Shown: positions 3,364 to 9,505 of the stretch, piece by piece
Numbering within the stretch: the first letter of the stretch is position 1
Layout: the number at the start of each line of letters is the position of its first letter
From: Caulobacterales bacterium
GTDB lineage: Bacteria > Pseudomonadota > Alphaproteobacteria > Caulobacterales > Caulobacteraceae
Assembly: GCA_947480815.1 (NCBI GenBank)
Contig: CANKEA010000007.1
Coordinates: 1-13,959, forward strand
Direction: 5' to 3'
DNA: 13,959 nucleotides
Position numbers and translations under genes: made by a program
The notes under the pieces: generated by a model
Databases searched by the model: none
Told to the model about the DNA's origin: nothing
What the model saw: only the letters and a program-made list of their open reading frames with translations

Positions 3364-3870
3364 ATGAACGCTGCCCCGATTCGTATCCTTGGCCTGGACC
3401 CTGGCCTGCGCCGCACCGGCTGGGGCCTGATCTCTGTGGAAGGCTCCCGCCTTAGCCATGTGGCCCATGGCGTTATCAGCCCGCCCGATGGGCTGAGCCT
3501 GGCCGAACGGCTGTTGTGGCTGTTCGAGGCCATCGAGGGCGTTATCGCCGCTCATGGCCCGCATGAAGCGGCGGTCGAGGAGACCTTCGTCAACGCCAAT
3601 CCGCAGTCGACGCTTAAGCTGGGGCAGGCCCGTGCCGCCGCCATGATCGCCCCGGCCCGCGCCGGCGTGCCCGTGGCTGAGTACGCCGCCCGTTACGTTA
3701 AAAAGGCCGTGGTCGGCACCGGCGCGGCGGACAAGTCCCAGATCGCCTTCATGGTTGCCCGGCTGCTACCCAGTAGCGGCTCGCCGACGGCGGATGCCGC
3801 CGACGCCCTGGCCGTTGCTATCACCCACGCGGGTGCGCGCCGCTCGGCCGCCCTGAGGTCTGTCGCATGA
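3364..3870 (+). CDS. ruvC: Holliday junction resolvase RuvC
   Basis: RuvC is the endonuclease that cuts Holliday junctions held by RuvAB, ending recombinational repair. From ATG 3364 it has 168 residues, the usual length. The catalytic acids are all present: Asp12 in LGLDPG, Glu72 in VEETFV, and Asp144 and Asp147 in [15 protein letters not shown]. The KSQIAFMV region and GTGAADK also match the family. Three in-frame ATGs exist (3340, 3361, 3364). A GGGGA at 3352-3356 sits 7 nt before 3364 and only 4 nt before 3361, and lies inside the longest version, so 3364 (or 3361) is favoured. The stop overlaps ruvA by 4 nt (ATGA). Confidence 0.95.
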
Positions 3871-6048: not shown

Positions 6049-6753
6049 ATGGATCCTTCGAACGTTACGCCGGAGACTTTCTCCTTCCTCACCCTGTTCC
6101 TTCGGGCCGACTGGGTGATCAAGGCGGTGATGACGGGTCTGGCCCTGGCCTCGCTGTGGTCTTGGGCGGTCATCATCGACAAGACCTTCCGCTTTACCTC
6201 GCTGAATGCCGCCGCGGATAAGTTCGAGGATCAAGTCTCCGGCGGGCGCAGCCTGGAGGACGTGGCGACCGAAGCGGGCGAGCGTCCGCGCCAGCCTTTG
6301 CCGCGTATGCTACAGGCGGCGCTGAAGGAATGGCGTGATGCCCGTAAGGGCGGTGGGGCGCTGGGCGAAACCCAATCGGCCTTCCTGATCCAGCGCATCG
6401 ACCGGGTCTTGGACTCCATGATCGCGCGCGAGAATGCCCGCATCGAGGAGGGCCTGGGAAGCCTCGCGATCGTCGCCACGGCCTCGCCGTTCGTGGGGTT
6501 GTTCGGCACGGTATGGGGCATCATGCATGCGTTCCAGAACATTGCGATCCAGAAAAACACCTCACTTGCCGTGGTCGCACCGGCCATTGCCGAAGCGCTG
6601 TTTGCCACCGCAATTGGTCTGGTGGCCGCCATTCCGGCCTATATCGCCTACAACAAGTTCTCGACCGACGCCGGCAAGTTCGGCGGCCGTCTGGAGGGCT
6701 TCGCCGACGATCTCTCCACCGCTATCCAGCGGCGGCTGGCCGAGCGGGTGTGA
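6049..6753 (+). CDS. tolQ: TolQ, proton-channel subunit of the Tol-Pal system
   Basis: TolQ is the inner-membrane partner of TolR, in the ExbB/MotA class; it uses the proton motive force to energise TolA during outer-membrane constriction. The 234 residues have the family layout: TM1 about 23-43, a long cytoplasmic loop with charged helices (about 44-135), TM2 about 136-158 containing ATASPFVGLFGTVWGIMHAF, and TM3 about 173-200 containing APAIAEALFATAIGLVAAIPA. These two blocks are the most conserved parts of the family. AAGGA (6033-6037) lies 11 nt before ATG 6049. The gap to the tolR/tolA frame is about 110 nt, long for a tol cluster, and holds a small ORF (see 6756-6860). Confidence 0.95.
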   Translation: MDPSNVTPETFSFLTLFLRADWVIKAVMTGLALASLWSWAVIIDKTFRFTSLNAAADKFEDQVSGGRSLEDVATEAGERPRQPLPRMLQAALKEWRDARKGGGALGETQSAFLIQRIDRVLDSMIARENARIEEGLGSLAIVATASPFVGLFGTVWGIMHAFQNIAIQKNTSLAVVAPAIAEALFATAIGLVAAIPAYIAYNKFSTDAGKFGGRLEGFADDLSTAIQRRLAERV

Positions 6754-6863: not shown

Positions 6864-8171
6864 GTGGCCCTCTCTGCTAACGACGCTTTCGCGGCCGGCC
6901 GGCGCCGCGGCCGGCGCGGCCGCGGCCGACGCGGTGCTTTGTCGGAAATCAATGTAACGCCGCTGGTCGATGTGATGATGGTCCTGCTGATCATCTTCAT
7001 GATCTCTGCCCCGCTGCTAACTGTGGGCGTGCCAATCGAACTGCCCAAGACGTCCGCCGGGGCACTCAACGACCAGAATCAACCGATCACGGTGTCGATC
7101 CGCCGCGACGGCCGGCTCTATCTGGGCGAGGACGAAGTGCCGTTCACGGCGCTAAGCGATCGGGCCATCGGCCTCGCCGCTGGCGAACTGGCGCGGCCGA
7201 TCTATGTGCGCGCCGACGGCGGCGCGCAGTACGCCATTGTGGCCCAGGTCATGGCAGCTCTGTCGACCAGTGGCTTTACCCGCATCAACCTGATCACCGA
7301 TACCGGTGGTCCCCCCTCTGGTTTGGCTGGGGATGCGAAGCCAGACGAAACGGCGTCGAAGGGCTCGGCCGTGGCTAGGTCACGCACCGAGACCAATTTT
7401 TCGCCAGCCGTTCTGGCCAGCGGGGTGCTGCATGGGCTGATCGCGGTGGTCCTGCTGATCGCTTGGCCGCATGCCTCCAAGCCGATCACCCTGGGCTCAG
7501 CGGTACCGGTGACCATCGTCGCGACGGGTCCCGTGGCCAATATCCGGCCGGCTGAACAGGCGCTGCTCGACCAGGAGGCTCAGACCGAGGCTCCGGTTCC
7601 CGACGCCGCGCCCGCGCCCGCCGCCCCAATCCCAGCCCCGACGCCGCCCAAGCCCGATGCTGCGCCAAAGCCCGCCCCCGCGCCCATACCGGCGAAGACC
7701 CTGGCCAAGCCGGCACCGCAGCCGAGCCTGAACCTCGACGCCCTGGCCGCTTCTATTGCCAAACGCCAAGTGGCCGCTTCTGGCCAGACCCGCTCCCAGG
7801 CTCAACAAGGTCCAGCCCGTGCCGAAACGGCCGTCGAAGCCCGTCAGGCCGTGGGCGCATCGTCCGCCCTGACTGCCAGCGCGCTTGGCATCCTGGCCGC
7901 GGAACTGCAGCGGCGCTGGAACCCCAATTGCGCGGTAGAAGGCGGCTCGTCGGTCGATATTCGTGTTGGCTTCCGCTTGGTTCAGGGTGGAATGATTGTC
8001 GGTGATGTGGATTCCTCTGGCGCGACCGCGACCGACCCCGTGGTTAAGGCGGCGTCTGATCGCGCCGTGAGAGCCGTGCGCCAGGCTGCACCCTTCGAAT
8101 CCCTGCCACCGGAACTTTTCGGCCAGAGGATCGTCGTCAACTTCAACGCCAAACAGGCCTGTTCGGCGTAA
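6864..8171 (+). CDS. tolR-tolA: TolR and TolA in one continuous reading frame
   Basis: One 435-codon frame covers two normally separate Tol proteins. Residues 1-150 are TolR: an Arg/Gly-rich cytoplasmic tail, [20 protein letters not shown] with the proton-path Asp36 in TM1, and the periplasmic ExbD/TolR domain ending near [10 protein letters not shown]. Residues 151-180 are a polar linker. Residues about 180-435 are TolA: TM2 (about 182-201) with SGVLH, matching the Ser-x3-His motif that contacts TolQ, then a Pro/Ala-rich stalk (about 235-300), then the C-terminal TolB/Pal-binding domain (about 335-435, with LQRRWNPNC). The start is GTG 6864 with GGGGAGG at 6848-6854. There is no stop between the halves. 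TolA normally begins N-in, so a literal fusion is topologically awkward. Internal GTG 7371 is a plausible separate tolA start. Both identities are firm; the fusion is uncertain. Confidence 0.9.
6894..6915 (+). other. GC-only hairpin early in the tolR coding region
   Basis: GCCGGCC (6894-6900) and GGCCGGC (6909-6915) form a 7-bp perfect stem around an 8-nt loop that is itself GC-only. It begins 30 nt after the GTG start, within codons for the Arg/Gly-rich tail. The surrounding 6891-6929 contains no A or T until the final codons. Such a fold could slow ribosomes or merely reflect CGG/CGC arginine codons. Confidence 0.4.
7358..7373 (+). promoter_or_regulatory. Candidate internal ribosome-binding site and GTG start for tolA
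   Basis: GAAGGG (7358-7363) is followed after 7 nt by GTG 7371-7373, in the same frame as the long ORF. Initiation here would give a 266-residue TolA beginning [12 protein letters not shown]. That is a short basic N-terminus followed at once by the membrane segment with SGVLH, the normal layout of a free-standing TolA. TAG at 7376-7378, in the -1 frame, overlaps this start. Inferred from spacing and topology, not shown. Confidence 0.5.
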
Positions 8172-8182
8172 GGATGATTGTT

Positions 8183-9505
8183 ATGCGTTTGTCTCTGCTG
8201 CTTTCTGCCCTCGCCCTGCTGGCCCTGCCGTTCGCTTCGGCGCATGCGCAGGGCCCTGCCGCGCCGCCCGCTGCGGCGGAAGAGATCACCGTCGATGTCA
8301 ACTCCGGCGCGGTGCAGCCTTTGCCCATCGCGGTTCCGGTCTTCAGCGGCGCTGCCCAGGGCGCTGACATCGCCAAGGTGATCATGGCCAATCTGGAACG
8401 TTCGGGTCTGTTTCGACCCATCGACCCCTCGGCCTTTGTTGAGACGTCGCTCGAGGTTAACGTTCAGCCAAGGTTCTCGGATTGGAAAACGGTCGGGGCG
8501 CAGGCGCTCGTCAATGGTCAGGCCACAGTTGAGGCAGACGGGCGCCTTCGGGTCGAATTCCGGCTATGGGACGTGTTCTCGGAAACCCAGTTGCTCGGCT
8601 TGCAGTTTACCTCCACGCCAGAGAACTGGCGGCGCGTGGCCCACAAGATCAGCGATGCGGTCTATGAGCGCCTGACCGGAGAGAAGGGTTATTTCGATAC
8701 GCGCGTGGTGTTCGTGGCCGAGAGTGGTGCCAAGGTCGGGCGCATCAAGCGGCTGGCGATCATGGATCAGGACGGCACCAACCCATCCTACCTGACCGAT
8801 GGCTCCTACCTGGTGATGACCCCGCGGTTTTCCTCGACCAGCCAGGAAATCACCTACATGGCTTTGCGACCCACTGGCTCCAGCGTTTATCTGTTCAACA
8901 TCGAGACGGGCCGTCAGGAAACGCTCGGCACCTTTCCCGGCATGGTGTTTGCCCCGCGCTTTTCGCCAGGGGGCGACAAGGTCGCATTTAGCGTCGAGCG
9001 CGGTGGCAACAGCGATATCTATGTTATGGACCTGCGTACGCGGCAGACCAGTCGCGTGACCTCCGACCCCGCCATTGATACCTCGCCATCCTTCTCGCCG
9101 GACGGCTCCAAGATCGTGTTCAATTCCGACCGGGGCGGCTCGCCGCAGATTTACATGATGAACACCGATGGCTCGGGCGTGCGGCGGATTTCCTACGGCA
9201 CGGGCCGTTACACCACCCCCGTCTGGGCCCCACGCGGCGATTTCATCGCCTTCACCAAACAGACCGGCGGCGAGTTTCATATCGGCGTCATGCGCGCCGA
9301 CGGCAGCGATCAGCGTTTGCTGACCACCAGCTATCTCGATGAGGGGCCAACCTGGGCCCCCAATGGACGGGTTCTGATGTTTTTCCGTGAAACCTCGCCG
9401 GGCAATCCGCGTCTCTGGACCGTGGACATTACCGGCCGAATTCTTCGGCCTGCGCCCTACACCAGCGCTGCGTCCGACCCGGCCTGGTCGACCTTGTTGA
9501 ACTAG
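8183..9505 (+). CDS. tolB: TolB, periplasmic beta-propeller of the Tol-Pal system
   Basis: TolB is the periplasmic shuttle that binds Pal, TolA and outer-membrane proteins. From ATG 8183 it has 440 residues, the family norm. Residues 1-22 form a Sec signal peptide ([20 protein letters not shown], likely cut after AHA). An N-terminal alpha/beta domain follows (about 35-165, ending near [20 protein letters not shown]), then a WD40-like six-bladed propeller with repeated F-S-P-D/G-G motifs: [61 protein letters not shown] 8174 is also in frame, but AAGGA (8170-8174) overlaps it and sits 8 nt before 8183, so 8183 is chosen. The gap to the tolA stop is 11 nt. Confidence 0.96.

Follow-up and report, generated by a model that had tools for sequence, protein, structure and literature searches.

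The tolR-tolA frame and its surroundings

The window, i.e., the whole stretch of 13,959 nucleotides analysed here, comes from a Caulobacterales bacterium and contains a tol-pal locus, the main features of which are listed in the table below. Around the frame under study the genes follow each other as a ybgC-like gene, tolQ, tolR, tolA, tolB, a Pal-like OmpA-domain gene and a cpoB-like TPR gene, an arrangement shared with the Tol-Pal operons of Caulobacterales and E. coli (ybgC-tolQ-tolR-tolA-tolB-pal-cpoB). In those operons TolR and TolA are two proteins, whereas in the window the assembled frame runs continuously through both: a single open frame of 435 codons occupies positions 6864-8171 of the forward strand, from a GTG start to a TAA stop, exactly as claimed in the first-pass annotation. 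Between 7300 and 7420 this frame is devoid of any stop, and the only forward-strand stop of that interval, the TAG at 7376, belongs to a different frame.

Features of the tolQ-tolB region of the window, with the evidence for each
Feature	Position	Strand	Evidence
tolQ	6049..6753	+	TIGR02796 over cut-off
tolR	6864..7364	+	167 codons to the stop site of the sister genome; PF02472 on residues 26-146; sister tolR also has 167 codons
AAGGG, modest ribosome-site-like motif, 7 nt 5' of GTG 7371	7359..7363	+	AAGGG also present in the sister genome
TCG codon, TAG at the same place in the sister genome	7365..7367	+	DNA alignment with L002/L031
GCC, sole codon separating the sister's tolR stop from the tolA start	7368..7370	+	alignment
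tolA, 266 codons from GTG, possible internal start	7371..8171	+	P0002 (266 aa) and P0003 (268 aa) begin here
TAG in another frame, shortly after the tolA start; no role assigned	7376..7378	+	stop scan
tolB	8174..9505	+	TIGR02800 over cut-off

The first half of the frame matches the ExbD/TolR family PF02472 with 97.6 bits against a cut-off of 25.4 (E 7.4e-28), and also resembles solved ExbD and TolR chains. It carries the membrane aspartate of this family, D36, within the first hydrophobic segment (residues 34-52), as E. coli TolR carries D23 in its helix. The whole 435-residue frame remains below the curated cut-off of TIGR02801, the NCBIfam tolR equivalog (112.6 against 127.3 bits), and the half is called TolR because the gene sits between tolQ and tolB. 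In the second half, a second hydrophobic segment (182-200) with an SGVLH motif at 186-190 is followed by a Pro/Ala-rich middle stretch and a C-terminal region. The S186/H190 pair resembles the S18 and H22 residues of the E. coli TolA helix, which contact TolQ according to the available text of PMC12583513. No match to Pfam at E <= 0.001, C-terminal domain included, and no solved relative were found for this half, which is identified as TolA because of the gene order (a locus between tolR and tolB), full-length Caulobacterales homologues and the S...H motif of the membrane helix, together with the extended middle. One of these homologues, P0032, is named both "cell envelope integrity protein TolA" and "energy transducer TonB". 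The key residues proposed earlier for both halves are thus present in the helices, i.e., Asp36 and SGVLH, whereas the TolA C-terminal domain proposed along with them goes unmatched by Pfam.

The junction in the nearest genome

The nearest genome found is that of an uncultured Caulobacterales, the metagenome-assembled genome ErkenSummer_bin-4356 (G015, contig CAISYT010000121.1), hereafter the sister genome. It shares 96.9% DNA identity with the window across 12.1 kb, and the two genomes diverge by 3.1% over 99.4 kb of matched contigs. Since 95% identity is the conventional species boundary, the sister genome represents a relative at about the species level, in which tolR and tolA are separate. 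In a whole-genome search it matches the entire 435-codon frame with 98% amino-acid identity and one internal TAG. The operon, the shared frame and the tolA GTG are the same in both genomes, the TolR and TolA sequences are respectively 98% and 97% identical, and the DNA from 7306 to 7364 is strictly identical. The junction itself reads AAG GGC TAG GCC GTG GCT in the sister genome and AAG GGC TCG GCC GTG GCT in the window, so that the TAG separating the two genes in the former is a TCG in the latter, by a single transversion at position 7366. In the sister genome tolA starts at its own GTG, corresponding to 7371 in the window, one codon (GCC) past the TAG.

As tolR and tolA already lie in one frame in this lineage, one transversion is enough to join them. 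The open frame is more than a product of chance, as known proteins match each half and the tolR stop of the sister genome falls precisely on the junction codon. The 30-residue polar linker of the first-pass annotation dissolves into the variable tail of TolR (about residues 147-167), the former stop (168), the intergenic codon (169) and the N-terminus of TolA (170 on), and did not evolve as a linker. The same annotation held that a stop at about 7311-7370 in a relative would speak against a fusion, and the TAG found at 7365-7367 in the 96.9% identical relative is such a stop.

Junctions in other relatives

A survey of 75 genomes of the genus, 74 of which matched at E <= 1e-40, revealed a stop-free match across both genes in the window's genome only; a match spanning both genes with one stop occurs in 11 other genomes (G015, G002, G023, G034, G036, G021, G065, G077, G062, G097 and G012). 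Similarly, in a sample of 200 genomes of the order (59 matching at E <= 1e-38), a stop-free passage from TolR to TolA was confined to the window's genome. Junctions were also read in fetched DNA for 149 loci with tolR of at least 45% identity, 142 of them distinct. Among the 83 distinct loci with tolR of at least 58% identity, one single locus, the window, is fused, and tolA was found 3' of tolR in 82. The comparison of tolR-tolA junctions called for earlier therefore goes against a conserved fusion, since tolR ends with a stop in 82/82 of the other distinct Caulobacterales-like loci (TAG in 43, TGA in 38, TAA in 1) and the fusion recurs in 0/82. Depending on the locus, tolA lies in the frame of tolR or in another one: the frame is shared in 17/82 distinct Caulobacterales-like loci, including the window, and the 16 others all possess a stop. 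At the next closest locus (TolR 88% identical), a TGA and 4 nt precede the GTG, and tolA occupies another frame. The 59 more distant distinct loci (45-58% identity) showed no fusion, the tolA matches being weak or absent there.

A second candidate fusion, in G076, for which 507-codon open frames had been reported for tolR and tolA, was discarded because the fetched DNA displays a TGA after 173 codons and a tolA located 162 nt downstream. Spacings of 146-203 nt between tolR and tolA were observed in L023, L029, L250, L251 and L252; in the first part of this gap, L023 and L029 carry a palindrome-like ctcatcccggcgaa stretch resembling a mobile repeat.

Matches in protein databases and in the literature

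Searching with the whole frame yielded 349 matches, the best of which, P0002, is a separate TolA of 266 residues beginning at GTG 7371, with 5 mismatches to the window and standing for 64 sequences. The stop upstream of tolA in the members of P0002 is presumed, none having been directly seen. No near-identical fused protein occurs among the best 120 of these 349 matches. A search scored on TolR and restricted to fusion-length proteins yielded 67 matches, none of them near-identical, with P0025 (72%) at the top. A counterpoint to the view of two separate genes is that no near-identical TolR of normal length occurs among the best 120 of 7576 matches, the best one reaching 92% over 92% of the query; the TolR of the sister genome is likewise missing from the best 120 of these 7576 matches, which shows that this organism is covered in a patchy or odd way by the protein database. 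A mismatch is apparent between the near-identical TolA, represented by 64 sequences, and TolR, for which nothing exceeds 92% over 92% of the query among the matches listed.

Seven entries (P0025, P0243, P0244, P0251, P0253, P0254 and P0260) resemble the window's frame in that a TolR/ExbD domain precedes TolA- or TonB-like sequence; P0251 has 2 members and the six others are single-member entries. None was retained as a comparable fusion. In P0025, P0243, P0244 and P0260, judged by eye, TolR runs into out-of-frame, Arg/Pro-rich text, and these resemble frameshift read-throughs, whereas P0251, P0253 and P0254 show a shortened TolR joined straight to TolA. All seven were taken, also by eye, for errors or one-offs. 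Another domain combination was encountered among the 67 fusion-length matches, 20 of which associate PF01618 (MotA/TolQ/ExbB) with PF02472 (ExbD/TolR); a few of them (P0275, P0276 and P0277) comprise several members or contigs, so that genuine TolQ-TolR or ExbB-ExbD fusions may be among them. A scan of viral contigs with the junction gave no match.

The Tol-system literature searched, to which subscription papers contribute little as they were mostly outside reach, yielded no description of a natural TolR-TolA fusion, and no occurrence of the phrases "TolR-TolA fusion", "ExbD-TonB fusion" or "tolR and tolA fused". In the accessible part of PMC4389277 the gene string appears solely within an operon list.

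Origin and significance of the continuous frame

Taken together, these comparisons make it very probable that tolR and tolA are separate, ordinary genes whose frames were joined by a one-base change of the stop, arising either as a consensus error or as a recent and rare stop loss. The two genes would be ordinary members of an alphaproteobacterial tol-pal operon, in a lineage where they share a frame, separated by one stop and one further codon; a single assembled sequence departs from its near-identical relative by one transversion in that stop (TAG to TCG), which yields the continuous frame. We infer that this species uses TolR and TolA as two distinct proteins. The joined frame reflects either an isolated variant or a mistake of assembly and represents no new kind of protein. 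Among the three readings offered in the first-pass annotation, recent stop loss and sequence error are those supported by comparison, and the real fusion is argued against.

Such an established, functional TolR-TolA fusion, with an unusual topology or processing, appears very improbable. The frame is indeed open, key residues are kept in both halves, and the dN/dS values against the sister genome are low (0.07 for tolR and 0.14 for tolA), though these mostly reflect the time before the stop was lost. However, the fusion is absent from the 96.9% identical relative and from all other loci compared, its linker consists of the tail of TolR and the N-terminus of TolA, and database entries that looked comparable turn out-of-frame by eye. 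Moreover, TolR and TolA each normally have a cytoplasmic N-terminus and one membrane helix. In a fused chain, the helix of TolA would approach the membrane from the periplasm, and the chain would serve at best as a TolR with an extension. The conflict of topology raised earlier is soundly reasoned and applies only if the fused chain is really made; a true fusion would challenge the known topology and subunit ratio of the Tol motor.

With respect to the base at 7366, known from the assembled consensus alone, we judge error and real stop loss to be about evenly balanced. An error of base calling, strain mixing or assembly in the metagenome consensus, the cells keeping the stop, has about one chance in two, the variant being confined to G000, an incomplete assembly (74.57% complete, in 246 contigs). 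The Tol-Pal system is reported as essential in Caulobacter crescentus in the accessible text of PMC7391070 and PMC7403779, so that cells permanently lacking a free TolR should be selected against, a point in favour of an error and against a real stop loss. To compare both assemblies, coding-like open reading frames of the matched contigs were retained by a crude filter (a length of 110 aa or more and 5 or more differences, with third positions making up 60% or more of these), which included some antisense frames. Both assemblies carry other breaks: indels of a length other than a multiple of three affect 6/88 of the frames defined in the sister genome and 5/88 of those defined in the window's genome, while internal stops in the other genome affect 4/88 and 6/88, respectively. 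The tolR-tolA frame is one of these 6, and one of the 4 is a 406-aa frame of the sister genome that a stop interrupts in the window's genome. These other frame breaks fit error or real decay alike. Against an error, 13 gene stretches fully compared between the window and the sister genome show no further break (tilS and ftsH were incompletely aligned and pal was compared from 9610 only), and errors are not rife at stops: the stop is conserved in the window's genome for 87/88 sister-defined frames, tolR being the exception, and in the sister genome for 87/88 frames defined in the window's genome, the exception being an alignment gap at the stop.

A real and recent stop loss in some cells, in which TolR would bear a TolA extension and functional TolA would come from GTG 7371, is a serious possibility, though short of an even chance. 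It would require one A to C change, a class that accounts for 25 of the 358 substitutions between the window and the sister genome, and both the GTG and the AAGGG are retained. Conversely, the ribosome-site match is ordinary, since the predicted strength of AAGGG (-5.5 kcal/mol) is equalled or beaten at 16/93 internal start codons (the ftsH row, with its wrong start, being ignored), and the near-identical TolA of P0002 is called as a separate gene. A strong ribosome site for tolA was consequently not used as evidence. A frameshift to TAG 7376 releasing TolR was also rejected, as the sister genome shares 7306-7364 exactly and needs no such release. In a cell with a real stop loss, functional TolA would mainly derive from initiation at GTG 7371. 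That a natural Caulobacterales population lives with the loss, making TolR solely as a TolR-TolA read-through and TolA from the internal GTG, seems unlikely; if true, TolR would tolerate having another membrane protein attached to its periplasmic terminus.

More generally, wherever same-frame neighbours are separated by one stop, as in the 17/82 loci mentioned above, one miscalled or mutated base can mimic a gene fusion, and apparent fusions of such neighbours should be accepted only with support from reads or from a near-identical relative.

Other observations in the window

Two overlapping frames occur on the reverse strand at 1969-2393, between a gene ending at 1947 and yebC (2452 on). The frame at 2049-2393 matches the RTX calcium-binding repeat PF00353 (E 2e-7), and that at 1969-2250 has no such match; searched as separate pieces, they look like the remains of a longer RTX-repeat gene whose frame was broken. 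At 3867, the ATG with which ruvA starts in the window corresponds to a GTG in the sister genome.
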